A stretch of DNA of 64,000 nucleotides from Candidatus Sulfotelmatobacter sp. (GTDB taxonomy: Bacteria > Vulcanimicrobiota > Vulcanimicrobiia > Vulcanimicrobiales > Vulcanimicrobiaceae): positions 1-64,000 of the forward strand of contig DATJRY010000020.1 in NCBI GenBank assembly GCA_035504415.1, read 5' to 3'. A program made the translations under genes and the position numbers. Each line of letters opens with the position of its first letter. Positions within the stretch are counted from its first letter, which is position 1. Positions 26,316 to 42,867 of this stretch are shown piece after piece. A model generated the notes under the pieces. The model worked only from the letters and a program-made list of their open reading frames with translations, made no database searches and was not told the DNA's origin.

Positions 26316-26777
26316 CTACTCCTCGAAGTAGAGCTTCATCTCGTCGAGCGGCGTGAAACCCATCGACACGTAGAGCGGCTTCGCGTCGTCGGACGAGTGC
26401 AGCGTGAGCCGGCGCAGCGGGTAGGCGCGCGCGTGCTCCACCATGACGTCCATCAGCGCGCGGGCGATGCCGCGGCGGCGCCAGCTCGGCTCGACCCACA
26501 CGCTGTGCACGCGCCCGTCGTGCTCGGCGGCCGAGTCGGGGCCCGGCACGGCCGGCGCGATCAGCAGCCACGCGCTGGCGACCGGTGCGGTGTCCTCTTC
26601 GGCGATCCACGCCACGAGTCGCCCGTCGGTCAGGGCTCCGACGAGCCAACGCCGCCAGACCCCGACGTGCGGATGGTCCTCGGTGTCGAACTCGCCGACC
26701 TCGACCCACACCCGCGCGCGATGGCGCGCGAGCAGCGCCGCGTCGGACGGCGTCGCGCGACGGATCGTGGACGTCAC
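26316..26777 (-). CDS. GNAT-family N-acetyltransferase
   Basis: A 153-residue acetyltransferase. It opens TSTIRRATPSDAALLARHRARVW, a standard GNAT first strand and helix, and has the acetyl-CoA loop VEPSWRRRGIARALMDVMVEHA (residues about 90-111), LTLHSSDDAKPLYVSMGF and an acidic C-terminus. GTG 26777 overlaps the stop of the enoyl-CoA hydratase gene (GTGA), so it is translationally coupled within the phenylacetate-pantothenate operon. The acceptor substrate is unknown. Confidence 0.82.
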   Translation of the reverse strand: MTSTIRRATPSDAALLARHRARVWVEVGEFDTEDHPHVGVWRRWLVGALTDGRLVAWIAEEDTAPVASAWLLIAPAVPGPDSAAEHDGRVHSVWVEPSWRRRGIARALMDVMVEHARAYPLRRLTLHSSDDAKPLYVSMGFTPLDEMKLYFEE

Positions 26778-27565
26778 CTGCCGGTGTAGACCGGCGCGCG
26801 CTTTTCGCGGAACGCCGCGACGCCTTCGACGGCGTCCTGCGATGCGCCGGCGACGGCCTGCATCTCGGCCTCGTACGCGAGCGCCGCGGCGACCTCGCCG
26901 AGTCCGTTGCGCACCAGCTCGCGCTTGGCCAGACCGAGCCCGCGCGGTCCGCGCGCGAGCGCGACGGCCAGCGCGTGCGCTTCCGCGACGCAACGCTCGG
27001 CCGGGACGACCTTCGTGCACAGGCCGAGCGCATCGGCCTGCGCGGCGTCGATCTTCTCGGAGAGCAAGCACAGCTCGACCGCTTTGCCGTAGCCGATCAT
27101 GCGCGGCAAGAGGTACGAGACGCTGCTGTCGGGGACCAGGCCGATCTTCACGAAGGCGGTCGTGAACGACGCCGTCTCGGCGACGATACGGAAGTCGCAG
27201 GCCAGCGCGATGCCGAATCCGGCGCCGGCGGCGACCCCGTTGACGGCGGCGACGACCGGCTTCTCGATCCCCAGCAGGCCCAGGATGAGCGGATTGTAGC
27301 GCTCGCGCACGGCCGTCGCGACGTCCATGGTGCCGTCGGGGCCGGCGAGCGCCGGATCGTCGAGCGCCTGGCCCGCGCAGAACGCCTTGCCCGCGCCGGT
27401 CAGCACCAGCGCGCGCACGGCTGGGTCGCGGTCGAGGCCGCGCAGTGTGCCGTGCAGCGAGCGCACCAGCGCGCCGGTCAGCGCGTTGTACGCTTGCGGG
27501 CGCGCGAACGTGACCGTCGCGACGCCGTCGTCGATGGTGACCGTATGCTCGACCGCCTCGCTCAT
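26774..27565 (-). CDS. paaG: Enoyl-CoA hydratase/isomerase, PaaG-like
   Basis: A 263-residue crotonase-fold protein. The oxyanion-hole elements are AFCAGQAL (residues about 63-70) and GVAAGAGFGIALACDFRI (about 105-122), then VKIGLVPDSSVSYLLPRMIG. A Pro-Asp-Ser-Ser motif in place of the hydratase Glu pair, with Asp retained, suits PaaG, the 1,2-epoxyphenylacetyl-CoA isomerase, better than a plain hydratase. ATG 27565 forms an ATGA overlap with the preceding gene; an ATG at 27577 is also possible. The gene name rests on context and this motif. Confidence 0.75.
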   Translation of the reverse strand: MSEAVEHTVTIDDGVATVTFARPQAYNALTGALVRSLHGTLRGLDRDPAVRALVLTGAGKAFCAGQALDDPALAGPDGTMDVATAVRERYNPLILGLLGIEKPVVAAVNGVAAGAGFGIALACDFRIVAETASFTTAFVKIGLVPDSSVSYLLPRMIGYGKAVELCLLSEKIDAAQADALGLCTKVVPAERCVAEAHALAVALARGPRGLGLAKRELVRNGLGEVAAALAYEAEMQAVAGASQDAVEGVAAFREKRAPVYTGR

Positions 27566-28314
27566 CGTCCCTGCCATGTCGGCCTCCGCTTGTTGAGGAA
27601 CGCGTCGATCCCTTCGTGCGCGTCCTCGGATTTCAAGAGCTCGTAAAAGGCACGCCGCTCGTCGAGCAGCGCGGTGTGGAGCGGGTCTTCGAACGCGCGC
27701 GAGACGGCGCGCTTGGCGACCCGCACCGCGTGCGGCGCTTGGCGCGCGAGCGCACCGGCCAGCTCGAGCGCGACCGGCAGCACCCGTTCGGTCGGCACGC
27801 AGCGGTTCGCCAGACCGTGCAGCTCGGCGGTGCGCCCGTCGATCTCGCGGCCGAGCAGCACCATCTCGGTGGCCAGCGCCTTGCCGACCGCGCGCGTCAG
27901 CCGCTGCGTTCCCCCCGCGCCCGGCATGACGCCGAGCAGAATCTCCGGCTGCCCGAGGCGCGCGTCCTCCGCGACGACGAGCAGATCGCACGACATCGCC
28001 AGCTCGAGCCCGCCGCCGAACGCGACGCCGCGCACGGCGCCGACGATCGGGAGCTGCGTCGCCCACAGCCGGTCCCACGTTTCGAGCTCGGGGCCCGCGG
28101 TGAGGAACTCGGCGACGTCGCCGCCGGCGGCGAACGCGCGCTCGTCGCCGGTCAGCACGATCGCGCGCGTCGTGCCGTCGGCGTCGCAGGCCTCGAACAC
28201 CTCGGCCAGCTCCGCGAGCAGCGCGTTCGAGAGCGCGTTGAGCACGCGCGGACGCGCCAAGCGCACGAGGGCGACGCCCGCTTGCGGTCGCTCGACGATC
28301 AGGTTCTCGCTCAC
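27562..28314 (-). CDS. paaF: Enoyl-CoA hydratase, PaaF-like
   Basis: A 250-residue crotonase-fold hydratase with both catalytic-site segments: ERAFAAGGDVAEF (residues about 58-70), VRGVAFGGGLELAMSCDLLV and LGVMPGAGGTQRLTRAVG, where the hydratase glutamates fall at GGLELA and PEILLG. It should hydrate an unsaturated acyl-CoA, plausibly 2,3-dehydroadipyl-CoA in phenylacetate breakdown. GTG 28314 overlaps the paaK stop (GTGA), with GGAGGAG just upstream. The next gene starts in its stop codon. Confidence 0.8.
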   Translation of the reverse strand: MSENLIVERPQAGVALVRLARPRVLNALSNALLAELAEVFEACDADGTTRAIVLTGDERAFAAGGDVAEFLTAGPELETWDRLWATQLPIVGAVRGVAFGGGLELAMSCDLLVVAEDARLGQPEILLGVMPGAGGTQRLTRAVGKALATEMVLLGREIDGRTAELHGLANRCVPTERVLPVALELAGALARQAPHAVRVAKRAVSRAFEDPLHTALLDERRAFYELLKSEDAHEGIDAFLNKRRPTWQGR

Positions 28315-29585
28315 AAGCTCCTCCGGTCGTACACGCGTTTTGCTTTGCCGGCCTCGATCCGCTCGATCGTTCCCGGAACGAGGACGGACGTCTGCAGCGA
28401 GACCAGCAGCGTCTCCGCGAGCCGATCGTTCACCGCGCGCGCGAGCGCGGCGACGTCGACGCCCGCGTCGGGCTGATGCTCGACCTCGATGGTCAGCTGG
28501 TCGAGTCCGCCGGCCGGCCGGTCGACGAGGATACGATAGTTGGCCGACAGCTCCGGGAAGCGCAGCAGCACTTCTTCGATCGCCGAGGGAAAGACGTTGA
28601 CACCGCGGATGATCAGCATGTCGTCCACCCGTCCGGTGAACCAGTCGATGCGTGCCGTCGTGCGCCCGCAGCTGCAGCGTTCGCGCACCATCGACGTCAG
28701 GTCGCGCGTCCGGTACCGCAGCACCGGCATCGCTTGGCGCGTCAGCGTCGTCAGCACCAGCTCGCCGCGCTCGCCGTCCGGCAGCGGCCGGCCGGTTTCC
28801 GGATCGACGATCTCGGCGAGGAAGTGATCCTCTTGGACGTGCATGCCGTTCTTGGCGGTGCACTCCTGCGCGACGCCGGGCCCGATGATCTCGGTCAGGC
28901 CGTAGATGTTGGTGCAGGTGACGCCGAGCAGCTCTTCGAGCTCCGCGCGCATCTCGCGCGTCCACGTCTCGGCGCCGCAGATCGCGTAGCGCAGCGAGCG
29001 CGGACGTTTGCCGTCGGCGCGCAGCCGTTCGCCGATCACCATCGCGTACGACGGCGTCGCGCCGAATCCGACCACCGGCAGATCGCACAGCAGTTGCAGC
29101 TGGCGCGCGGTGTTGCCGCTCGAAGCCGGGATGACGCACGCGCCGAGCGTCTCGCACCCGCCGTGCGCGCCCAGACCGCCGGTGAAGAGCCCGTAACCCC
29201 ACATGACCTGGAACATGTCGCCCGGCTCGATCCCGCCGGCGGCCAAACTGCGCGCGACGACCTCGCGGAAGATGCGCTCGTCCTCACGCGTGTAGGCGCC
29301 CACGGTCGGATTCCCGGTCGTTCCGCTGGAGGCGTGGATGCGCGTCAGCTCGCGCTCGGGGACGGCGAGCAGCCCCAGCGGATAGGCGTCGCGCATGTCG
29401 GCCTTGGTGCTGAACGGCAGTGACGGCAGGTCGCCCAGCCCGGCCGGGTCGGGAACGCCACGCAACCGCGGCCGGTAGACGTCGTTCGCGTCGCGCAGCC
29501 GGCCGACCAGGTCGCGCAGTCGTTCGGCCTGCAGCGCCTCGAGCGCATGCCGCTCCAGCGTCTCGTACTCCGGCTGAAAGATCAT
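28311..29585 (-). CDS. paaK: Phenylacetate-CoA ligase PaaK
   Basis: A 424-residue adenylate-forming ligase: ATP motif HASSGTTGNPTVGAYT (residues about 84-99), MFQVMWGYGLFTGGLGAHGG, ICGAETWTREMR, NIYGLTEIIGPG, RYRTRDLTSM, and the C-terminal hinge and lysine region GRVDDMLIIRGVNVFPSAIEE and AGKAKRVYDRR. These are diagnostic of phenylacetate-CoA ligases. It activates phenylacetate to its CoA ester in the cytoplasm and is the first gene of a six-gene minus-strand operon (paaK, paaF, paaG, GNAT, panE, panB). The oxygenase genes paaABCE are not in the window. Confidence 0.92.
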   Translation of the reverse strand: MIFQPEYETLERHALEALQAERLRDLVGRLRDANDVYRPRLRGVPDPAGLGDLPSLPFSTKADMRDAYPLGLLAVPERELTRIHASSGTTGNPTVGAYTREDERIFREVVARSLAAGGIEPGDMFQVMWGYGLFTGGLGAHGGCETLGACVIPASSGNTARQLQLLCDLPVVGFGATPSYAMVIGERLRADGKRPRSLRYAICGAETWTREMRAELEELLGVTCTNIYGLTEIIGPGVAQECTAKNGMHVQEDHFLAEIVDPETGRPLPDGERGELVLTTLTRQAMPVLRYRTRDLTSMVRERCSCGRTTARIDWFTGRVDDMLIIRGVNVFPSAIEEVLLRFPELSANYRILVDRPAGGLDQLTIEVEHQPDAGVDVAALARAVNDRLAETLLVSLQTSVLVPGTIERIEAGKAKRVYDRRSL

Positions 29586-31601: not shown

Positions 31602-32600
31602 TCAGACGCTGCGGCGGGCGGTGGCGTCGAAGATCGCGGCGAGCTTGCCGTCGCGGTCGAGGTCGTGACGCGCGGCGAGCGCGTTCGCCTCGTCGATCGC
31701 TTTCGCGCACGCCTCGTCGGCCGCGCGCTGCGCGCCCAGTCGTTCGAGCGCGGCGATGACGCGTTCGGCGGTCGCGTCGTCGAGCGGCGCGTTCGACGCG
31801 TACGCATCGGCGACGGTCGCGCGGTCGGGCGACGCCGAACCGTCGAGCGCCCAGGCGACCGGGAACGACCATTTGCGGCGGCGGATGTCGGCCCCGCTGG
31901 GCTTCCCGGTCTCCGCCGTCGCGCCCCAGGTGCCCAGGATGTCGTCGCGGATCTGGAACGCCAGGCCGTAGGCGCGGCCGACGTTACCGTAGGCCGCCGC
32001 CCGTTCCGCGTCGCAGCGGGCCGCCAAGGCGCCCAGCTCGCACGACGCGCCGAACAGCGCCGCGGTCTTGCCTTCGATCATGCGCTGGTACTCGTCGAAC
32101 GAGACCGTCGCGGCGCGCTCGAAGCTGATGTCGTACGCCTGTCCCTGGCACATGCGAAAGTGCGCGCGGTACAAGCAGCGCGCCATCGCGACGACGCTCT
32201 CCGCCGGCAGTCGCGCCGAACCGTCGATCAGCGTCAGGTAGCTGAGCGCGCAGAGCGCGTTGCCGGCTTCGAGCGCGGCCGGAATCCCGTACCGCGACCA
32301 CAGTGTCGGCCGTCCGTGCCGCAGCTCGTCGCGGTCCTCGATGTCGTCGTGGACCAGCGAGAAGTTGTGCAGCAGCTCCAGCGCCGCGGCCGCGCCGAAC
32401 GCGTCCTCCGCCGGCGCGCCCTCCGTCTGCGCGACGGCGACCAGGATGCGCGGGCGCAACCGCTTGCCGCGCTTGGCGCTCGGGTCATCGAGGGCGAAGT
32501 GCTCGCGGATCAGGGCCCGGTTCGGCGAGCTGGCGTCCAGACGGTCCAGTGCGCCTTCGAGGTAGCCCTCGAAGGCGTCGAAAGGAGCTTCGGCCAGCAC
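31602..32600 (-). CDS. Polyprenyl (trans-isoprenyl) diphosphate synthase
   Basis: A 332-residue head-to-tail prenyltransferase. The first Asp-rich motif is LVHDDIEDRDELRHGRPT (DDxxD plus the RxGxPT extension), the second is FQIRDDILGTWG, a DDxxG variant also seen in some actinobacterial GGPP/FPP synthases. It makes a C15-C20 or longer prenyl diphosphate, and in this operon farnesyl diphosphate for squalene is the obvious candidate. GTG 32600 shares one base with the hpnH stop (TAGTG). Product chain length cannot be read from sequence by eye. Confidence 0.85.
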   Translation of the reverse strand: MLAEAPFDAFEGYLEGALDRLDASSPNRALIREHFALDDPSAKRGKRLRPRILVAVAQTEGAPAEDAFGAAAALELLHNFSLVHDDIEDRDELRHGRPTLWSRYGIPAALEAGNALCALSYLTLIDGSARLPAESVVAMARCLYRAHFRMCQGQAYDISFERAATVSFDEYQRMIEGKTAALFGASCELGALAARCDAERAAAYGNVGRAYGLAFQIRDDILGTWGATAETGKPSGADIRRRKWSFPVAWALDGSASPDRATVADAYASNAPLDDATAERVIAALERLGAQRAADEACAKAIDEANALAARHDLDRDGKLAAIFDATARRSV

Positions 32601-33619
32601 TACCGCGCGACGAAGCTCTTGACCGACGCGATGATGCTCGCCGGACGCATGTGATCGGCGGCGGCGGTCGCCTCGAAGCCGGAATGGACCATGCAGTCCT
32701 CGCACTTCGGGTTGCCGCTGCCGTGGCCGTACTTGTCCCACTCGGTCTCCTCGAGCAGCTCCTTGTACGACTTGGCGTAGCCCTCGCCGAGCAGATAGCA
32801 CGGCTTCTGCCAGCCGAAGAGACTGTACGAGGGCATGCCCCACGGCGTGCAGTCGTAGTCTTTCTCGCCGGTCAGGAAGTCGAGGAAGAACGGGCTGGCG
32901 TTGAATTGCCATTTCTTCTCGCCGCGCTTCATCGGCGCGAAGATCTCGCGGAACAGCGAGCGCGTCTGCTCTTTGGCCAGGAAGTGATCCTGGTCGGGCG
33001 CCTTCTCGTAGCGATAGCCGGGCGAGATCATCATGCCGTCGACCTTGAGGTCGTCGGTGAGGAAGTCGAAGAAATCCTGGAACGTCTTCGGATCGGCGCC
33101 GTCGAAGATCGTCGTGTTGGTCGTGACGCGGAAGCCGCGCGCTTTCGCCGCGCGGATCGCCTTGACGGCGACCTCGTAGATCCCTTCGCGCGCGACGGCG
33201 TGGTCGTGCACGTCCTTGGGACCGTCGAGATGGACGCTGAACGAGAAGTAGGGCGAGGGCGTGAACTTGTCCAGGCTCTGCTCGAGGCGAATCGCGTTGG
33301 TGCAGAGATAGACGAACTTCTTGCGCTCGATCAGCCCCTTGACGATGACGTCGATCTGCGGGTGCAGCAGCGGCTCGCCGCCGGGGATCGAGACGACCGG
33401 CGCGCCGCACTCGTCGACCGCCGCGAAGCAGTCTTCGGGGGAGAGGTGCCGGCGCAGGACCTCGACCGGGTGCTGAATCTTGCCGCAGCCGCTGCACGCC
33501 AGGTTGCACCGGAAGAGCGGTTCGAGCATCAGGACCAGCGGGTAGCGTTTGCGCCCCGCGAGCCGCTGGCGCAGCACGTACGTGCCGACCGACACCGCTT
33601 GCTTGACCGAGATCGCCAT
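32600..33619 (-). CDS. hpnH: Adenosyl-hopene transferase HpnH (radical SAM)
   Basis: A 339-residue radical SAM enzyme. The Fe-S cluster motif is C-x3-C-x2-C in [16 protein letters not shown] (residues about 36-50), followed by [11 protein letters not shown] and [15 protein letters not shown], and a C-terminal cysteine region [14 protein letters not shown]. HpnH joins a 5'-deoxyadenosyl group to diploptene, the first step of hopanoid side-chain extension. ATG 33619 overlaps the hpnA stop (ATGA), with GGAGA five bases upstream. The next gene, the polyprenyl synthase, begins in its stop. Confidence 0.93.
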
Positions 33620-34623
33620 CAATTCTCCACAGGGCGGCTGCCGGGATCGGCGTAGCCGTAGGTACGGAACCACGTGACCGCAGCCGCGAGCGCTTCGGTT
33701 ACGCTGCCGGGCCGAAACCCGAGCTCACGCTCTGCTTTCGCGGCGACGTACCACATCCGCTGCTTGGCCATCCGTACGCTCTCGACCGAAACGTCCGGCC
33801 GCACGCCCAGCGGCGCCAGCAGGGTCTCGCCGACCGCCGCGTAGGCCAGCGGAATCCAGCGCGGCAGCCGCACCCGCGGGGCCGGCCGGCCCGCCAGCGG
33901 CGCCAGGCGCTCGAGCAGCGCGCGTAAGGTCAGGTTCTCGCCGCCCAGGATGTAGCGCTCGCCGGTCCGGCCCTGCCGATAGGCGGCGATGTGGCCGGCG
34001 GCGACGGCGCGCACGTCGACGACGTTCAGTCCGGTGTCGACGTAGGCCGGCATCTGGCCGCGCAGGAAGCGCACGACGATCTCGCCGGTCGGGGTCGGCT
34101 TGGCGTCCCAGGGACCGATCGGCGTCGTCGGGTTGACCAAGACGACGTCCTGGCCGCCGGCAACCGCCCGATCGACCTCCTCTTCGGCCAGCCGCTTGGA
34201 CTTCTTGTAGGCGCCGATCAGCGCGGCGGTCGGGCTGCGGTAGGTCTCGTCGGCCGGCCGCCCGTCCGCTCGCACGCCCAGTGCCGCGACCGAGCTGGTG
34301 TGGACGACCCGCGGGACGCCGGCGGCGCGGGCCGCGGCCAGGACGTTGCGCGTCCCCTCGACGTTGGCCCGCAGCAGCGCCGCGCGGTCGCGGCGCCACA
34401 GGCTGTACAGCGCGGCGACGTGGAAGACCGCGTCGCTGCCGCGCATCGCCGCGACGAGGTCGGGCGCGAACAGGTCGCCGGGAACGCGCGCGACCTCCAA
34501 GCCGTCGAGCGAGGGTGCGGCCCCGCGCACGAGCGCCCGGACCTGCCAGCCGTCGTCGAGCAGCGCGCGCACCAGGTTCGCCCCGACGAAGCCGGAGCCG
34601 CCGGTGACGAAGGCCGTCGGCAC
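33619..34623 (-). CDS. hpnA: Hopanoid-associated NAD-dependent sugar epimerase/reductase HpnA
   Basis: A 334-residue extended short-chain dehydrogenase. The nucleotide motif is [16 protein letters not shown] (residues about 7-22) and the catalytic pair is in [11 protein letters not shown] (YxxxK), with [18 protein letters not shown] following. This last block and the hopanoid context mark HpnA. GTG 34623; four bases separate it from the squalene synthase stop, and its own stop overlaps the start of hpnH. The exact reaction of HpnA is not settled in the literature I know. Confidence 0.9.
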
Positions 34624-34627
34624 GCGC

Positions 34628-35668
34628 TCAGGCGCCGAAGGTGAAGGGACGTTTGCGAACGCGGTCGGCGAGCCAGCGCAGCGTCGGGTTCGTCAACGTC
34701 GAGGTCGTCGCGGCCAGCACGACCGCGCGCACTTCGGCGCGCCCGATCTTCACCGCGCCGCCGGGGACCAGCATCTCATCGGTCCGCTCGAGCTCCCGCA
34801 TCGTCGCGATCGCGAACAGGATCGGCAGCACGCAGAACAGGCGAATCCGCATCGCGGCCGCCGGGATCGCCTCGATGTAGCGCAGCGCGCGTTCGATGTC
34901 GTCTTGCGCCAGGGTCATCAGCGGCGCCAGCGCGGTTCGGTTGGCCGCGCGCAGCGCGGGTTCCAGCAGCCGGTCGTGGGCGCTGCCGGCGGCGGCCAGC
35001 GCGTCAGCCGGGACGTAGATCGCGTTCTCGTGCTCGGCGTCCCACGCGATGTCTTTGAGGATGTTGACCGTCTGGAGCGCCTCGCCGAACGCTTCGCAAT
35101 CGTCGAGCAGCCGCGCGTAGGTCCGTTCGCCGATCAGGATCGAGTGCTCGTGCCACAGCTCGGTGAGCAGATGCCCGACCGTGCCCGCCACGTAGTAGCA
35201 GTACTCCTGGAACTCGGCCGTCGTGCGGATGCGGATGCCGTTCGGCTGCGCGATCACGAACGAGCGCATCCCGCGCACCATCTCGCCGACCCAGCGGTGC
35301 AGGATCGCGCGGGTCGGCGGGTCGAGCGCGCGGTAGAGCATGAAGACGCGTCCGGTGGCGGCGACCAGGTCGAGGTACTCGGCGTTCGAGGTCAGCTCGG
35401 GGACGACGTTGCCGAACGAATCGGCGGCCTCGACCTCGTCGAAGCACGTCAGGAAGGTGGCGAGCAGCTCCGCCTTGCGGGTCGCGCTCAGGGCCAGGTC
35501 GTCCTCGATCGTATCGGCGATCCGGCACAGCAAATAGCCCAAACGCACCGGTGCCTCGAGCCGGGCCGGCAGCAGCTTGATGCCCAGCGCGAAGGTCCGC
35601 GAGACCCGCGGCAGCAGCAGGCGCGATTCCCGAACAGCCTCGTCGACCGACGTCTCCTGCGCCACCAT
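34628..35668 (-). CDS. Squalene synthase, eukaryote-like (SQS/FDFT) type
   Basis: A 346-residue head-to-head prenyltransferase. The aspartate motifs are CRIADTIEDD (residues about 51-60) and VNILKDIAWDAEHENAIYVP. The later segment RLFCVLPILFAIATMREL followed by GGAVKIGRAEV matches the hallmark FCxxPxxxAIATL and KIRKGQ blocks of eukaryotic squalene synthase, which reduce presqualene diphosphate to squalene in one enzyme. HpnC, HpnD and HpnE are not in the window, which agrees. ATG 35668 is preferred; a GGGGAGG sits 13 bases upstream. First gene of the operon leading to hpnA, hpnH and the prenyl synthase. Confidence 0.85.
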   Translation of the reverse strand: MVAQETSVDEAVRESRLLLPRVSRTFALGIKLLPARLEAPVRLGYLLCRIADTIEDDLALSATRKAELLATFLTCFDEVEAADSFGNVVPELTSNAEYLDLVAATGRVFMLYRALDPPTRAILHRWVGEMVRGMRSFVIAQPNGIRIRTTAEFQEYCYYVAGTVGHLLTELWHEHSILIGERTYARLLDDCEAFGEALQTVNILKDIAWDAEHENAIYVPADALAAAGSAHDRLLEPALRAANRTALAPLMTLAQDDIERALRYIEAIPAAAMRIRLFCVLPILFAIATMRELERTDEMLVPGGAVKIGRAEVRAVVLAATTSTLTNPTLRWLADRVRKRPFTFGA

Positions 35669-35693
35669 GGGCGTGCCAACACCTCCCCAGCTC

Positions 35694-35717
35694 ATGCCGT
35701 ATGGGTCCACACGGCAT
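35694..35717. promoter_or_regulatory. Inverted repeat in the divergent gap between squalene synthase and the di-iron gene
   Basis: ATGCCGT (35694-35700) and ACGGCAT (35711-35717) form a 7-bp inverted repeat with ten bases between. The 146-base gap separates the squalene synthase start (minus) from the di-iron protein start (plus), so a shared operator is possible. No clear -10/-35 pair was seen. Confidence 0.3.
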
Positions 35718-35814
35718 CGTATGTCCGATGGATACCCGCTCCGGGTTCCATCGCCGGGAGCCGCGTCCTTCGAAAAGGCAGGAACCACCTCGTCCCCGTG
35801 GCGGAAAATATGGC

Positions 35815-36690
35815 ATGCGACCCGGAACGCTTGCCCACCGCGATCTCTTCTGCCGCACGTTCGTCGAGACGCACGTCGCCTTCGAACCCGCCGAATTGCC
35901 CTGGCCGGTCCTCGATCCCACGCTGCTCGCGCGCGTCCGATCGTTCCCGTTCTGGAACATCGCGCGTTCGATCGAACAGCGCGCCGGCCGAATGGTCAGC
36001 GCTTTCGCGCAAACGCTCGACGACCCCGTCATCGCCGACGCAGTCGCCTTGCAGGGCGTCGAGGAGACACGGCACGGCCGGTTGATGGACCACGTCTGCG
36101 AGCGCTACGGCATCGACGCGCCGGTATTGGCGATCCCCGACGCCCCGGCGACGCGGGACGACTTCTGTGAGTTCGGTTTCGGCGAATGTCGGGATTCGTT
36201 CATTGGCTTCGGCGCGCTCGCGATCGCGCGCGAGCGCCAGCTCTTCCCCACCCCGTTGCTGGCGATCTTCGATCAAGTGCTGTGGGAAGAGGCGCGCCAC
36301 ATCATGTTCTTCGTGAACTGGTGGGGCTACGAAGAAGCGCGCGCCGGCCGCGGCGGTTGGATTCCCCGGACGCTCGCCGCGCTGGGTCACCACGCCGCCG
36401 CGCTCGCCGGGACCGTCAAGAGCGCGTCCGAACAGCCGACCGGCGAGCTCGACCTGAGCGCCGCCGGCGACATGCTCGACGGCGTGACGCCGGTGACGTT
36501 CCTCGAAGCGGCGTTGGCCGAGAACCGCCGCCACATGAGCAAGTTCGATCCGCACCTGCTGCGCCCGCGGCTGGTGCCCGTGCTGGCCACGGCCGCGCTG
36601 ACGGCGATCCGGTTGTTGCCGCCGCGCAGCGACGCAGCCGTGAGCGTCGATCACCCCGCGCTCGCGCTGCGCGCGCGCAACGCGGCGTAG
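35815..36690 (+). CDS. Di-iron ferritin-like protein of unknown function in the hopanoid locus
   Basis: A 291-residue soluble protein. Two ExxH iron motifs are plain: LQGVEETRHGRLMDHVC (residues about 78-94) and VLWEEARHIMFFVNWWGYEE (about 155-174), and additional acidic helix residues occur between them (FGFGECRDSFIGFGALAIARE), giving the four-helix di-iron pattern of the ferritin/R2-like superfamily. I cannot name the family. It is divergent from squalene synthase, and its last 40 bases overlap the 3' end of squalene-hopene cyclase, so it is physically locked into the locus. ATG 35815 is chosen; the 38 in-frame residues upstream look non-coding. Confidence 0.75.
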   Translation: MRPGTLAHRDLFCRTFVETHVAFEPAELPWPVLDPTLLARVRSFPFWNIARSIEQRAGRMVSAFAQTLDDPVIADAVALQGVEETRHGRLMDHVCERYGIDAPVLAIPDAPATRDDFCEFGFGECRDSFIGFGALAIARERQLFPTPLLAIFDQVLWEEARHIMFFVNWWGYEEARAGRGGWIPRTLAALGHHAAALAGTVKSASEQPTGELDLSAAGDMLDGVTPVTFLEAALAENRRHMSKFDPHLLRPRLVPVLATAALTAIRLLPPRSDAAVSVDHPALALRARNAA

Positions 36691-38618
36691 CGGCCCAGCG
36701 CCGTGAGCGGGAAGTGCAGCCGGTAGTAGTGGTAGTTGAGGTAGAAGTGAACCGGGAAACCGGTGCCGGTGAACTCGGGCTCGTCCCAATTTCCGTCGGC
36801 GCGCTGCGTCGCTAGCAGATACGCGACGCCGCGCTCGACGGCCGGCATGAACGCGTCGGCGATGGTGGGCAAGCGTTCGACGCAGGCCAGCAGCGCGATC
36901 AGTGCCCAGCCGGTCTGGCTGGCCGTGCTCGGCCCGATCCCGCGCAGCGCGGGCTGCTTATAGGAATCGGTCGTCTCGCCCCATCCGCCGTCGGCGTTCT
37001 GCACGCTCTTGAGCCAGACCGCACCGCGCACGACCGCCGCGTCGACGCGGGGATCGCCGACGTTGGTGCGCTCGAGCGCGGCCAACGCGTTGCTGGTGCC
37101 GTAGACGTAGTTGACGCCCCAGCGGCCGAACCACGCGCCGTCGCGTTCCTGCTCGGCCAACAGATACGCGAGCGCGCGCGGCGCGCGATCGTCGCGCAAC
37201 CGCAGGTCGCCGCGCCAGAGCATCTCGAGCACGCGCGCCGTCACGTCGGCCGTCGGCGGATCGATCGATGCTTTGAGGTCGCTGTAGGCGACGCGGTTGA
37301 GCCACGCCTTGTCGTTGTCGACGTCGAACGCGCCCCAGCCGCCGCCGCGGCACTGCATCCCGGCGATCCATGCGGTCGCCTTCTCCATCGCGCCGCGCAC
37401 GCGCGCCGCGTCGGGGTGTTCGGCGGCGGCCAGCGCCATCACGACGACGGCGGTGTCGTCGACGTCGGGATACCAGGCGTTCTCGAACTCGAACGCCCAG
37501 CCGCCCGGCTTCCCGTCGCGGTTCTTGACCGCCCAATCGCCGTAGCGCGCGACGATCTGCTTCTCGAGCAGCCATTCGACGGCGCGCACCAAGCGCGGAT
37601 CGTCGCGCCGCACGCCGGCGTCGACGAGCGCGCGCACCGCCAGGCCCGTGTCCCATACCGGCGAGATGCACGGCTGCACGCGGTACGCGCCGTTCTCGGT
37701 GACGGTGAAGCCGTCGATCGCGGCCCAGCCGCGCTGCACGACGGGGTCGTGCAGGTCGTACCCGATGGCGCGCAGTCCGAGCATCGCGTTGAGCATGGCG
37801 GGAATGATCCCGCCCCAGTCGCCGGTGTGCTCTTGGCGTTCGACCGTCCAGCGCTCGGCGCGGCGCAGCCCTTCCGCGCGAAACGGAATCGCGTCGAGCC
37901 GCTCGCACTGCTTGAAGAGCGCGTCGATCCGGTTGAAGAAGCGCTCCCAGTCGTCCTTCGGCGGCGGCAGCGCGAAGCGCGCGTTCTCGTAGCCTTCGGC
38001 GTAGAGCTCGTCCACGCGCAGCACCGGGCCGTAGACGGGTTTGCGGTCGAACAGCAGGATCAGCGGCACCGTGCTGCCGCGCGCCCAGCTCGAGAGATCG
38101 TAGATCGAGAACGGGCCGCGCTCGGGCAGCATCATCAGCCACGGGGGCAGCGCCGGCAGGCCGGCCCAGTCGTACGCGCCGATGAGGGCGAGGTGCATCT
38201 TGGTGAAGATGCGTGTCTGGGTGACGCCGCCGCGCGCGAGGATGTACGCCCGCGCGCGCACGAGCGCCGGATCGTCGACCGGCACGTCCAGCATGCGCAG
38301 CGCGAGATACGCCTCGACGGTGACGCTCAGCTCGCCGCCGTCACCGTAGGCCAGCTCCCAGCCGCCGTGCTCGCGCTGCTCGCCGCGGAAATACGCTTCG
38401 GCGCGCGCGCGCGGCACCCGATCGAAGGTGCCCCAGACGTGGTGCAGCAGCAGCACTTCCGCCGTGATGGTGACGTTGGACTGCAGCTCGGCCCACCAGT
38501 AGCCGTCGGCGTGTTGCAAACGGAACAACGCGCCAACCGCGCGTGCGATCGCGTCGTCGAGTGGAGGGGCGGGTTCGTCCTCGCGCGGCTGCGAAAGGGC
38601 GGTGTGAATGCTGCTCAA
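36651..38618 (-). CDS. shc: Squalene-hopene cyclase
   Basis: A 655-residue terpene cyclase with repeated QW-type motifs (ADGYWWAEL, EQERDGAWFGRWGVNYVYGTS, NADGGWGET, RADGNWDEPEFTGTGFP) and the protonating DxDD motif DVDDTAVV at residues 385-388. It folds squalene to hopene/hopanol at the membrane surface. The start is uncertain: TTG 38618 gives the normal length, but no ribosome binding site is seen and it overlaps the ATG of divergent hpnB by 11 bases. A later TTG near 38540 would cut into the first conserved helix. The 3' end overlaps the di-iron gene by 40 bases. Confidence 0.93.
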   Translation of the reverse strand: MSSIHTALSQPREDEPAPPLDDAIARAVGALFRLQHADGYWWAELQSNVTITAEVLLLHHVWGTFDRVPRARAEAYFRGEQREHGGWELAYGDGGELSVTVEAYLALRMLDVPVDDPALVRARAYILARGGVTQTRIFTKMHLALIGAYDWAGLPALPPWLMMLPERGPFSIYDLSSWARGSTVPLILLFDRKPVYGPVLRVDELYAEGYENARFALPPPKDDWERFFNRIDALFKQCERLDAIPFRAEGLRRAERWTVERQEHTGDWGGIIPAMLNAMLGLRAIGYDLHDPVVQRGWAAIDGFTVTENGAYRVQPCISPVWDTGLAVRALVDAGVRRDDPRLVRAVEWLLEKQIVARYGDWAVKNRDGKPGGWAFEFENAWYPDVDDTAVVVMALAAAEHPDAARVRGAMEKATAWIAGMQCRGGGWGAFDVDNDKAWLNRVAYSDLKASIDPPTADVTARVLEMLWRGDLRLRDDRAPRALAYLLAEQERDGAWFGRWGVNYVYGTSNALAALERTNVGDPRVDAAVVRGAVWLKSVQNADGGWGETTDSYKQPALRGIGPSTASQTGWALIALLACVERLPTIADAFMPAVERGVAYLLATQRADGNWDEPEFTGTGFPVHFYLNYHYYRLHFPLTALGRYAALRARSASAG

Positions 38619-39786
38619 CGGTGTACGAATCTGTGCTTGGGTTGCTGCTGCGGTGTGGGTCGGACTGATCGCCGGACGGGGCCGGTTTTGGGACGCGAGT
38701 GCCGACGGCCTTCGTGACCCCGCGCCGGGCGAGCCCGCGCCGGACGTGCACGCGGTCGTTCCGGCCCGCGACGAGGCGGACGTCGTCGCGCGCACGCTCT
38801 CCTCGCTCTTGACCCAAGACTATCCCGGACGGCTGCACGTCACGCTCGTCGACGATCGTTCGAGCGATGGGACCGCGGCGATCGCGCGCGAGACGATCGC
38901 GTCGGCGGGCGCAGCGGGGCGCGCCGCCGTGGTGACGGGACGGCCGCGGCCGGAAGGCTGGACCGGCAAGGTGTGGGCGCTGAGCGAAGGCGTCGCCGCC
39001 GCGCGCGCGGACGGTACGCCGCCGGCCTACTGGTGGTTCTCGGACGCCGACGTCGAGCACGATCCGCGGACGCTCGGGCGACTGGTCGCGACCGCGCGCG
39101 CCGAGCAGCGCGCGCTGGTATCCCAGATGGTCGCGCTGCACTGCCGCTCCGGCTGGGAGCGCCTGCTGATCCCCGCTTTCGTGTTCTGGTTTCGCATGCT
39201 CTACCCGTTCGCGTGGGTCGCCGACGACCGGCGCGCGACCGCGGGTGCCGCCGGCGGCTGCGTGTTGCTCGCCGACGAAGCGCTGCGCGCGATCGGCGGC
39301 GTCGAACGCATTCGCGGCGAGCTGATCGACGACTGTTCGCTGGCGCGTGCGGTGAAGGACGCCGGTTTCGGGCTGCACCTCGAGCTGACGACGCGCTCGC
39401 GCAGCGTGCGCCCCTACGCCGGCCTCGAGACGATCTGGAAGATGGTCGCGCGCACCGCGTACACGCAACTCGGCTACTCGCCCCTGCGGCTCGCGGGCAC
39501 GCTGGCCGGGATGGCGTTGCTCTATGGTATACCAGTCGCCGCGACCGTCGCCGGAGCGGTCACGCGCCGCGCCGACATCGCCCTTCCCGGCGCGTTCGGC
39601 TGGGCCTTGCTGGCGGGCGCGTACGTTCCCACCCTGCGGTTGTATCGCGTTCCCGCGCTCGCCGCGCTCGCGCTGCCGGCCGCCGCGGCGCTCTACACCG
39701 CGATGACGGTCGACTCCGCGCGCCGGCACCACGCCGGCCGCGGCGGCAGCTGGAAAGGCCGCGACTTCACGCCCGCGCGGAGCTGA
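38608..39786 (+). CDS. hpnB: Hopene-associated glycosyltransferase HpnB
   Basis: A 392-residue family 2 glycosyltransferase with an N-terminal membrane anchor and C-terminal membrane helices. GT-A motifs: VHAVVPARDEADVVARTL, VTLVDDRSSDGTA, FSDADVEHDP (DxD) and IDDCSLARAVKDAG, and the C-terminal GRGGSWKGRDF typical of HpnB. Its exact acceptor is unproven in the family. It reads away from shc, and the two start codons overlap, so each promoter must lie inside or very near the other gene. Confidence 0.88.
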   Translation: MLLNGVRICAWVAAAVWVGLIAGRGRFWDASADGLRDPAPGEPAPDVHAVVPARDEADVVARTLSSLLTQDYPGRLHVTLVDDRSSDGTAAIARETIASAGAAGRAAVVTGRPRPEGWTGKVWALSEGVAAARADGTPPAYWWFSDADVEHDPRTLGRLVATARAEQRALVSQMVALHCRSGWERLLIPAFVFWFRMLYPFAWVADDRRATAGAAGGCVLLADEALRAIGGVERIRGELIDDCSLARAVKDAGFGLHLELTTRSRSVRPYAGLETIWKMVARTAYTQLGYSPLRLAGTLAGMALLYGIPVAATVAGAVTRRADIALPGAFGWALLAGAYVPTLRLYRVPALAALALPAAAALYTAMTVDSARRHHAGRGGSWKGRDFTPARS

Positions 39787-40260: not shown

Positions 40261-40872
40261 TTACCCTTGGGCGACGGCGCGCGCGACGGATTCGAGCGCC
40301 GCCAGCGCCCGGCGCACGTCGCGCACGAAGGAGTACGCGGCCCGCGGTGCGCGCGCGAACGCCAGCGCGATGCGCAGCCCGTCGACGCGACCGTCGACGA
40401 TCGCGCGCTCGAGCGCCGGCAAATCGCGGGTCGCATCGTCGCTGACGACGCGCACCATGGCAGCCGTCCGGCCGCGCGCGGCGAGCGCGGCGGCCAGGTG
40501 CGTCCCTTCCATGTCCACGACGTCGGCGCGATACCGCTCGGCCAGCGCGGCGCGTTCGCGCCGCGTCGTCACGACGTGATCGGTCGTGCAGCCGGCGACG
40601 AGCCGCGCGCCGAGCGCGCTCGCGAGGGCCGTCTCGCACGCGAACGTGCCTCGTTCGCCGGTGACGCTGCGATAGACGACGACGTCGCCGACCCGCAGCG
40701 CGCCGAGCGCGCCGCACAGGCCGAGCACGACGATCGGCGCGTCGGCGGAGAGGGACGGCAGCTCACCGCCGCGGGAGCCGGGTGCGATCTCGACCAGCTC
40801 GGCGCGCGAGGCTGCGCGCCGCACCGCGGCGGCTTCGGCGCCGCGCGGAACGAGCAGCGTCGGCGGCGTCAC
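40261..40872 (-). CDS. hpnG: Adenosylhopane nucleoside phosphorylase HpnG
   Basis: A 203-residue phosphorylase of the nucleosidase (MTA/SAH) family. It has VVLGLCGALGALRVGDVVVY (glycine-rich phosphate and nucleoside site), GCTTDHVVTTRRERAAL, and VVDMEGTHLAAAL (the MEG motif that holds the ribose). HpnG removes adenine from adenosylhopane to give ribosylhopane, the step after HpnH. GTG 40872 overlaps the hpnI stop (GTGA). Shorter than MTA/SAH nucleosidases, as is usual for HpnG. Confidence 0.85.
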   Translation of the reverse strand: MTPPTLLVPRGAEAAAVRRAASRAELVEIAPGSRGGELPSLSADAPIVVLGLCGALGALRVGDVVVYRSVTGERGTFACETALASALGARLVAGCTTDHVVTTRRERAALAERYRADVVDMEGTHLAAALAARGRTAAMVRVVSDDATRDLPALERAIVDGRVDGLRIALAFARAPRAAYSFVRDVRRALAALESVARAVAQG

Positions 40873-41990
40873 GTGGTGTGCTGTTCGCCGCGCCAGCGCA
40901 CGTCGCGCCCGGCGTAGGCGGCGGCCCACACCGCCAGCCCGAACGCGTCGCGCAGCGGGACGAGCCACGGCGCCGCCGGCGCGGGCGGCTCGAACGCCGA
41001 ACGCGCCGCGCGCGCCAGCGCGAAACGCGCCGCCAGTGCGGTCGCCGTCAGCGCCAGCGCGCGCCCGCGATGCCGGCTGAGCGCGAGATACGCTAGCGCG
41101 AGCGGGACCGGATAGGTGACGAACAACCCCGCGTAGCCGCCGGGACGCAGGAAGCGGTGGGTGCGTGCCCAGCGCAGCTCGTGGTGCCACAGGTCGCGCA
41201 GGCTCGGCTCGTCGACGACGTTGCCGACGACGTAGGTCGAGAGCTCGACCCGCAGCCCGGCGTCGGCGACCAGCTCGCCCAGCTTCGCGTCGTCGGCCAA
41301 ATGCGTCCCGATCGCGTCGAGGCCGCCGATCTGCTCGAAGAGCGCACGGCGCACGGCCATCGTCGAACCGAACGTGTAGCGCAGCGGGCCCAGCGCCTGC
41401 GCGACCAGCACCGAGGGCGCGAAGTGCTCGTGGTTGGCCATCGCGCCGAGCGCCGACGCGAAGCCCGGCAGCGGTTCGCCGCGGTACAGGCACGTCACCG
41501 CGCCGACCTGCGCGTCCTCGAACGGCGCGACGATCGCCAGCAGCCAGTCGGGACCGACGCGCATGTCGCTGTCGGCGATCACCAACAGCTCGCCGTGCGC
41601 GTGCGGGACCATCGCCGCCAGCGTGTTCGCCTTCGGATTGCGGTGCCGCGCCTCGACGCCCGCGCCGTCGACGACGCGCACCCGGTCGGGAAACTCGGCG
41701 GCCAGCGCGCGCGCGACCGCCAGCGCCGGGTCGCGCGGATCGCGCGCGCCGAGGATCACCTCGAGGTCGGGATAGTCCTGATCGCAGAACGAGCGCAGGT
41801 TCTGCAGGAGCAGCGTCTCCTCGCCGTGCAGCGGTTTGAGCACGCTGACCCGCGGCGCGCGCGCGGCGGGACGGCGGGGCCGGCGCGCGAACGCGCGCAC
41901 GCGGCCGAGCGCGAAGAGCGTGTAGCCGACGCCGGCCAGCGTCGCGCCGAGCGCCGCCGCGGCCGCGATGCCGCGCAGGTCAGCTCGCAC
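40869..41990 (-). CDS. hpnI: Hopanoid N-acetylglucosaminyltransferase HpnI
   Basis: A 373-residue membrane glycosyltransferase of the ceramide-glucosyltransferase-like family 21/2. Features: N-terminal membrane segment, VSVLKPLHGEETLLLQNL, VIADSDMRVGPDWL (D1/D2 aspartates), GSTMAVRRALFEQIGG, and HHELRWARTHRFLRPGGYAGL (D3 and QxxRW-like box), with two C-terminal helices. HpnI adds N-acetylglucosamine to bacteriohopanetetrol; HpnK then deacetylates it. GTG 41990 overlaps the hpnK 3' end by 11 bases. Confidence 0.9.
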   Translation of the reverse strand: MRADLRGIAAAAALGATLAGVGYTLFALGRVRAFARRPRRPAARAPRVSVLKPLHGEETLLLQNLRSFCDQDYPDLEVILGARDPRDPALAVARALAAEFPDRVRVVDGAGVEARHRNPKANTLAAMVPHAHGELLVIADSDMRVGPDWLLAIVAPFEDAQVGAVTCLYRGEPLPGFASALGAMANHEHFAPSVLVAQALGPLRYTFGSTMAVRRALFEQIGGLDAIGTHLADDAKLGELVADAGLRVELSTYVVGNVVDEPSLRDLWHHELRWARTHRFLRPGGYAGLFVTYPVPLALAYLALSRHRGRALALTATALAARFALARAARSAFEPPAPAAPWLVPLRDAFGLAVWAAAYAGRDVRWRGEQHTT

Positions 41991-42867
41991 GGCGCAGCGC
42001 GGCGAACGGGATGCGCTCGACGCCCGGGGCGTCGAGCAGCGCGGCGACGTCGGGGCTGGTGAGCGCCGTCAGCTCGTCTTCGAGGTGATAGCCGGCCAGC
42101 GCCGGATCGATGCCCGGCCAGCGTTCCGTCGCGCAGTGGAAGAAGATCTCGGTCACGCCGGGCTCGAGTTGATCCAGCAGCGCGACGACCCGCGCGGGCG
42201 TCATGCGGCCGACGTCGGAGAGCCCGAACACACGGTCGTTGTGCGGGACGCCGCGCGCGCGCAAGCGCGCCCGCATCAGCGCAAGCCACGGCGCGAGCAG
42301 GTACGCGTTGGCGAAGCGCAGCCCGCGCAGGTCGCCGTTCGCACGCCACGACGGCCCGAACGGCTCGTACGGAATCCGGATCGGGGGGCTGCCGTACTCG
42401 CGCGCGATCGTCAGCATCAGTCCGAAGACGGTCGGGTGCAGATGGAAGTGCGACTGTGCGTTGACGTGGTCGAACGGCAGCCCGCTGGCCGCGAACGCGG
42501 CGAACTGCGCGCGCATCTCGGCTTCGAGCTGCCGCCGCGCGCGCGGGTGGAAGAAGTAGCGTACGCCGGCGCGCGCCAGGTCCGCGCTGAACGTCCCGTC
42601 GCGACCGACCAGGTCGGGAATCCGTTCGGGCGGCAGCAGCGGGCGGCCGGCGACGACGACGACGTGCAGGCCGACGCCCAGCGCGGGCAGCGCGCGCGCG
42701 CGGCGGATCGCGTCGGCGGCGGCCGGTTCGGCGACCATCAAGCTGGTCGCGGTCAGCACGCCCTCGCGGTGCGCGCGCTCGACGGCCTCGTTCACGGGCA
42801 CCGACAGACCGAAGTCGTCGGCGGTGACGATCACGCGGCGCGCGGCGCCGCTATTGGCCGACGCCAC
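41980..42867 (-). CDS. hpnK: Hopanoid GlcNAc deacetylase HpnK (YdjC/ChbG family)
   Basis: A 295-residue YdjC-fold deacetylase: VIVTADDFGLSVPVNEAVERA (metal-binding Asp pair, residues about 12-32), LGVGLHVVVVAGRPLLP (metal His), FDHVNAQSHFHLHPTVF (further metal His) and TEIFFHCATERWP. It converts BHT-N-acetylglucosamine to BHT-glucosamine. GTG 42867 overlaps the preceding LolA-like gene by 17 bases, and its end overlaps hpnI, so hpnK, hpnI and hpnG form one coupled unit. Confidence 0.9.
   Translation of the reverse strand: MASANSGAARRVIVTADDFGLSVPVNEAVERAHREGVLTATSLMVAEPAAADAIRRARALPALGVGLHVVVVAGRPLLPPERIPDLVGRDGTFSADLARAGVRYFFHPRARRQLEAEMRAQFAAFAASGLPFDHVNAQSHFHLHPTVFGLMLTIAREYGSPPIRIPYEPFGPSWRANGDLRGLRFANAYLLAPWLALMRARLRARGVPHNDRVFGLSDVGRMTPARVVALLDQLEPGVTEIFFHCATERWPGIDPALAGYHLEDELTALTSPDVAALLDAPGVERIPFAALRRAS

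Follow-up and report, generated by a model that had tools for sequence, protein, structure and literature searches.

The question raised by this locus is what a ferritin-like protein that no family database claims might be doing among the genes of hopanoid biosynthesis. The window, meaning the whole stretch of 64,000 nucleotides that was analyzed, comes from a 4.17 Mb genome of the Eremiobacterota, in which the gene has no paralogue. DIFE is the name used here for this hopanoid-associated ferritin-like di-iron protein family. The gene order of the locus is polyprenyl synthase, HpnH, HpnA, squalene synthase, DIFE, squalene-hopene cyclase (SHC), HpnB, HpnG-like, HpnI and HpnK, with the following features:

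31602..32570, minus strand: polyprenyl diphosphate synthase, start approximate (PF00348, E 1.3e-55)
32600..33622, minus strand: HpnH, adenosyl-hopene transferase (TIGR03470, over cut-off)
33619..34623, minus strand: HpnA (TIGR03466, over cut-off)
34628..35665, minus strand: squalene synthase, SQS_PSY (PF00494, E 7e-50)
35666..35814, no strand: intergenic region of about 150 bp between the divergent squalene synthase and DIFE
35815..36690, plus strand: DIFE gene, 291 aa (open ORF; no Pfam, NCBIfam or PDB family)
35974..35976, plus strand: codon of predicted ligand E54, helix 47-65 (alignment; helix from AlphaFold model)
36064..36075, plus strand: E84xxH87 motif (EETRH), predicted ligands, helix 71-97 (invariant in alignments A1 and A2)
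36184..36186, plus strand: codon of predicted ligand E124, helix 114-140 (alignment; helix from AlphaFold model)
36289..36300, plus strand: E159xxH162 motif (EEARH), predicted ligands, helix 146-176 (invariant in A1 and A2)
36651..36690, no strand: convergent 40-bp overlap of DIFE with the 3' end of shc (ORF coordinates)
36651..38600, minus strand: squalene-hopene cyclase, start approximate (TIGR01507, 841 bits, over cut-off)
38608..39786, plus strand: HpnB glycosyltransferase (TIGR03469, over cut-off)
40261..40872, minus strand: HpnG-like nucleosidase/phosphorylase (TIGR03468, E 8e-18, below cut-off)
40869..41990, minus strand: HpnI glycosyltransferase (TIGR03472, over cut-off)
41980..42867, minus strand: HpnK deacetylase (TIGR03473, over cut-off)

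That the ORF is more than a chance one is clear from its homologues, found in 44 genomes of the phylum, from its conserved ligands and from the high confidence of its predicted fold. Its start at 35815 is backed by the homologues, and a longer in-frame ATG is present at 35701. A sequence-only reading of this DNA had described the gene as divergent from squalene synthase and as overlapping the cyclase gene by 40 bases, and both statements are exact; DIFE in the window is in an operon with neither of them. The idea that the overlap is a functional lock was dropped: in congeners it ranges from +64 bp to a gap of 34 bp, so that its length carries no information and it is probably not functional. 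No sigma-70-like site was found between squalene synthase and DIFE, a result that is uninformative for this phylum.

Several features of the surroundings should be noted in their own right. The squalene synthase is closest to the eukaryote-type Sqs model (TIGR01559, 113 bits, below the equivalog cut-off of 287). In the window's genus this single gene replaces the hpnC, hpnD and hpnE of sister genera (L052, L055, L062; L numbers denote the surveyed loci), and two routes to squalene are thus found inside one family. HpnJ is absent from the genus. Two enoyl-CoA hydratase-like ORFs and a phenylacetate-CoA ligase-like ORF, named by the look of their sequences, adjoin the hopanoid locus at 26774-29585 and recur across the genus (c10, c12). 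Several automatic ORF clusters, c9 among them, were disregarded because they are antisense artefacts of the high GC content.

As to the protein itself, the two ExxH motifs pointed out by the earlier reading are present (E84-TR-H87 and E159-AR-H162), and E54 and E124 complete the ligand set. All six residues are invariant in alignment A1 (43 homologues), and their spacing, E-x29-ExxH and E-x34-ExxH, is the pattern of ferritin-like di-iron carboxylate proteins. In alignment A2, which adds betaproteobacterial and further cyanobacterial members to A1 and spans three phyla, both ExxH pairs are invariant, with E54 and E124 conserved to 90% or more. In a long-branch cyanobacterial member (L119:7655-8515) E54, the first of the glutamate ligands, is missing, and this protein may differ in function. 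The AlphaFold model (mean pLDDT 92.1) is all-helical and ferritin-like, with the six predicted ligands on the four long helices listed above. The best 50 Foldseek matches listed are all of the ferritin-like di-iron superfamily, and the best PDB structures were ribonucleotide reductase R2, stearoyl-ACP desaturase, aldehyde deformylating oxygenase and R2lox, with probabilities up to 1.00; no E-value was better than 0.007, TM-scores did not exceed about 0.5, and identities were 10–18%. As judged from the model, the fold class is clear and there is no solved close relative. Ligands, model and Foldseek matches together support the earlier assignment of DIFE to the ferritin-like di-iron carboxylate superfamily, with the metal site being a predicted one. 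It should be considered that fold and ligands are also compatible with non-oxygenase ferritin-like proteins.

Sequence profiles are less specific. No Pfam family claims the window protein, which had no match to AurF (PF11583) at E<=1 and none to any NCBIfam family at E<=1, hence to no Hpn model and not to AcsF; the claim that it is not one of the named Hpn proteins thus held. Profile searches against PDB sequences gave chance-level matches only, and a PHROGs search gave no match. Its relatives have weak profile matches to AurF, COQ7, rubrerythrin, AcsF and encapsulated ferritin.

To which pathway the family belongs can be learned from its distribution. The systematic search covered Eremiobacterota and cyanobacteria, plus plasmids; Alphaproteobacteria, Acidobacteria and methanotrophs were reached by one contig pattern scan and the plasmids. 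DIFE was found in 44 of 149 Eremiobacterota genomes, in 19 of 386 cyanobacterial genomes and on 13 plasmid or megaplasmid records, all from Burkholderiaceae. Cupriavidus metallidurans CH34 is a carrier (megaplasmid record NC_007974.2). HpnH, present in 89 and 85 genomes of the same two sets, occurs in 43/44 Eremiobacterota carriers of DIFE as opposed to 46/105 non-carriers (Fisher p=4e-11), and in 19/19 cyanobacterial carriers as opposed to 66/367 non-carriers (Fisher p=6e-14). Inside the window's own family the association has p = 1e-9, and SHC is present in 41 of the 44 Eremiobacterota carriers (p = 1e-8). These p-values ignore shared ancestry, although the result repeats in two phyla and inside the family. 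The sole carrier without HpnH (G078) is a 77% complete genome that has hpnI, hpnK and shc beside DIFE. Conversely, DIFE is found in about half of the HpnH genomes in Eremiobacterota and a fifth of those in cyanobacteria. HpnJ is missing from 31/44 Eremiobacterota and 11/19 cyanobacterial carriers, and a specific tie between DIFE and HpnJ, suggested by their adjacency in three phyla, was rejected (co-occurrence p=0.07 in Eremiobacterota, 0.35 within the family). The family tree gives good support to two groups, the Burkholderiaceae members and the sub-family of the window, while its deepest branches are weak.

The gene neighbourhoods of the homologues point to the same pathway. A hopanoid or isoprenoid marker lies within 5 kb of DIFE in 42 of 64 loci (28/41 in Eremiobacterota, 11/16 in cyanobacteria and 3/7 in Burkholderiaceae), where three of the 42 are linked through type-2 IPP isomerase alone (L064, L069, L074) and nine belong to the window's genus. 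Linkage by chance was estimated, not computed, at one to two per cent, considering few hopanoid clusters of 10–20 kb in genomes of 3–4 Mb. The remaining 22 loci have no hopanoid gene within 5 kb, and such unlinked loci are found in all three phyla, including 4 of the 7 in Burkholderiaceae. The survey of homologues that had been suggested from the sequence alone was thus strongly positive, for linkage as well as for HpnH: the gene is locked into the hopanoid locus well beyond the window, in three phyla, and its homologues are not scattered away from isoprenoid genes.

The arrangement in the window, between squalene synthase and SHC, is found in its genus and in L049. Outside the genus, the close same-strand neighbours of DIFE are the side-chain genes hpnG, hpnI, hpnJ, hpnK and hpnB, with distances given as gaps between tblastn matches. 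HpnJ precedes DIFE by 27–33 bp in three loci (L045, L047, L048) and by 45 bp in cyanobacterial L108, where HpnK follows. DIFE is followed by HpnK within 60 bp in five loci, this arrangement being that of L050, L057, L062 and L063, and HpnI precedes DIFE by 56–91 bp in three others (L061, L073, L075). In seven cyanobacterial loci an HpnG-like gene follows at 0–176 bp, adjoining HpnA/HpnH in L106, L113, L115, L116 and L117 and without these in reach in L109 and L118. In Cupriavidus (L079, L122), DIFE leads a run of HpnB, HpnA, IspH, HpnH and HpnN, at 10–42 bp from HpnB, and in Caballeronia (L121) the order is hpnK-hpnI-hpnL-DIFE-hpnJ. Arrangements beside hpnCDE/fni/shc are found in L052, L055, L056, L065 and L068. 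As these arrangements vary from one lineage to the next, simple inheritance of a single cluster does not account for the linkage. With DIFE confined almost entirely to hopanoid producers in two phyla and hpn-linked in three, its association with hopanoid biosynthesis is strong, and very probably it acts on hopanoids themselves.

Individual loci show further features. In cyanobacterial L034 (Nostocales) two tandem DIFE paralogues (L034:6001-7811) lie after hpnJ and before hpnK and hpnI, and one reading of them is two successive hydroxylations (pentol, hexol). On plasmid p3 of Caballeronia zhejiangensis (L121:11992-12821) DIFE carries a frameshift and has no annotation, and IS elements lie downstream of hpnJ. 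A short-chain dehydrogenase gene follows DIFE at -1 to +2 bp in two genera (L051:1875-4362, L054:10053-12511), as if an oxygenated product were oxidized further. An EamA-family transporter gene, possibly for hopanoids, follows in two loci (L110:8963-9859, L112:8363-9172), in one of them with hpnI next. One sub-clade (L058, L059, L060, L070, L071, L072) has no hopanoid neighbours and is often found near a PMT_2-type glycosyltransferase and a FAD_oxidored protein, and most of its genomes keep SHC and HpnH elsewhere. No gene for an electron-transfer partner of DIFE was identified, which is a point against an oxygenase role.

What, then, might DIFE do in this pathway? HpnH starts the side-chain extension that yields the C35 hopanoids, and ferritin-like di-iron enzymes such as soluble methane monooxygenase and AcsF hydroxylate aliphatic carbons. 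We propose that DIFE would be a ferritin-like di-iron oxygenase with the C35 bacteriohopanepolyol (BHP) side chain as its substrate, which it would tailor once HpnH has put the chain in place. The predicted di-iron site would activate O2 and oxidize an unactivated C-H bond, and the most likely reaction would be hydroxylation of the CH2 adjoining the tetrol, at C-31 or, for the cyanobacterial pentol, at C-30, by which bacteriohopanetetrol or a precursor may be converted to bacteriohopanepentol. The side chain is favoured over squalene or the rings because of the HpnH dependence and the operon-like pairs with hpnG, hpnI, hpnJ, hpnK and hpnB. As many carriers are without HpnJ, cyclitol is not needed and a purely cyclitol head-group role is disfavoured. 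The patchy presence of DIFE in genomes with HpnH speaks for optional tailoring and not for a core step such as BHT formation.

The choice of the pentol draws on lipid reports. BHpentol is among the common cyanobacterial BHPs, and the 30,32,33,34,35-pentol has been called cyanobacterial (PMC5642901). In Burkholderia cenocepacia, compounds annotated as BHpentol cyclitol ether and its unsaturated forms were described from K56-2 and two other clinical strains (PMC8560942). The overlap of pentol and DIFE should be read at the level of species or phylum and is not strain-matched: the B. cenocepacia homologue is from another strain, CMCC(B)23006, and has no hpn genes within 12 kb. According to a 2025 survey, it is not known which genes make BHpentols and hexols, nor which make unsaturated BHPs, and for the pentols and hexols no candidates were found near the hpn clusters of Alphaproteobacteria (PMC12583986), which suggests another enzyme or a distant gene in those that make pentols. 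The HpnH and side-chain linkage, the patchiness, the pentol reports and the known aliphatic hydroxylation by di-iron enzymes thus led us to commit to side-chain oxygenation, with the pentol as its most likely product. That DIFE is an oxygenase acting on the BHP side chain is probable, with activity and substrate predicted. For this explanation as a whole, a di-iron oxygenase of the C35 side chain that most likely forms the pentol, where metal, activity, substrate and product are all predicted, we consider the balance to be even. Pentol formation specifically, a product suggested by correlation, is put forward tentatively. Equally tentative, and somewhat doubtful, is the view that DIFE, being common to Eremiobacterota, cyanobacteria and Burkholderiaceae, could be the missing hydroxylase from bacteriohopanetetrol to bacteriohopanepentol and related biomarker lipids.

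The main catalytic rival of hydroxylation is desaturation, in which DIFE, working like a soluble acyl-ACP desaturase, would form the ring double bond (delta-6 or delta-11) found in unsaturated BHPs. The top structural matches include stearoyl-ACP desaturase, the genes for such BHPs are by the same survey unknown as well (PMC12583986), and B. cenocepacia has species annotated as bacteriohop-6-enes (PMC8560942); however, the close same-strand partners of DIFE are side-chain and not ring-modifying genes, no acyl-ACP desaturase model was matched in any Pfam or NCBIfam scan, and the closest relatives in these databases are AurF and AcsF, making desaturation unlikely. A modification of squalene or of the C30 hopane skeleton (diploptene, diplopterol) would fit the position between squalene synthase and cyclase in the window's genus and the divergence from hpnCDE/fni/shc in several other genera. 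Such arrangements are, however, divergent or convergent rather than operons, and the HpnH dependence and operon-like side-chain pairs point downstream, so we consider it very unlikely; from the earlier suggestion of a hopanoid or squalene modification, the hopanoid association stands and the squalene or ring substrate is not favoured.

Quite improbable, too, is an oxidation of the glucosamine or cyclitol head group of composite hopanoids, e.g., by AurF-like N-oxygenation. The weak AurF similarity of 24/43 members and the frequency of hpnI, hpnJ and hpnK as neighbours would agree with it, but this similarity does not reach the curated cut-off and does not exceed that to AcsF, HpnJ is missing from many carriers, and the partner is HpnG-like in seven cyanobacterial loci and hpnB in the two of Cupriavidus. 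DIFE could also be an auxiliary protein that handles iron, regulates, or protects HpnH and HpnJ from peroxide or O2, since both belong to the radical SAM enzymes, which are generally sensitive to O2. The rubrerythrin/ferritin fold permits such a role, and the weak rubrerythrin, encapsulated-ferritin and COQ7 matches agree with it. Nonetheless, about half of the Eremiobacterota and most cyanobacterial HpnH genomes are without DIFE, protectors are usually not tied to one pathway, and the conserved DIFE segments outside the ligand helices (N-terminal 1-45, and 226-267) are absent from simple ferritins. We therefore regard an auxiliary role as unlikely.

Side-chain oxygenation by DIFE is thus the reading we prefer, and it is of interest as pentol BHPs serve as cyanobacterial markers. 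As a candidate, DIFE is concrete, a gene family whose genomic linkage is strong in three phyla. If its proposed role is true, it would provide a genetic test of possible biomarker makers, and an O2-dependent step of side-chain tailoring; if DIFE is a desaturase instead, the neighbouring question of the unsaturated BHP genes would be answered.

In comparison with known systems, no description of the DIFE family was found among the open-access papers listed for hopanoids with ferritin-like or di-iron proteins. AurF resembles DIFE in its ferritin-like di-iron site with two ExxH motifs. The best E-value of the weak AurF similarity is 0.0021, below the Pfam gathering cut-off, and hhalign of DIFE against an AurF-type set gave E 1.4e-4 over 103 columns, the set being four genomic PF11583 matches, one of them over the Pfam cut-off. 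AurF, however, oxidizes aromatic amines, and the hopanoid context of DIFE is new. AcsF, an O2-dependent ferritin-like di-iron enzyme that oxidizes an aliphatic CH2, also shows weak profile similarity: 14–18 of 40 DIFE members match its models (best E 3.9e-5 for NF010172 and 6e-4 for TIGR02029), far below the curated TIGR02029 cut-off of 192.5 bits. With hhalign (E 1.5e-4), the 53 aligned columns span one E plus ExxH, so that just half of the di-iron site aligns, and the cyanobacterial DIFE carriers possess separate AcsF genes. A specific kinship with AcsF was rejected, as the AurF-type proteins align equally well, and neither of the two is preferred. Stearoyl-ACP desaturase and R2 / R2lox are the best structural matches to the DIFE model, yet they gave no profile match above cut-off. 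The cyclitol-ether genes HpnJ, HpnI and HpnK, together with HpnG, are neighbours of DIFE in the same pathway but belong to unrelated families (radical SAM, glycosyltransferase, deacetylase and nucleosidase), and DIFE occurs without HpnJ. Finally, the membrane proteins of the 'sterol desaturase family' are histidine-box di-iron enzymes, unlike DIFE, which is a carboxylate-type ferritin-like protein by its predicted ligands. These proteins, including HpnX, have been discussed for unsaturated BHPs (PMC12583986) and are, like DIFE, proposed hopanoid-oxidizing enzymes.
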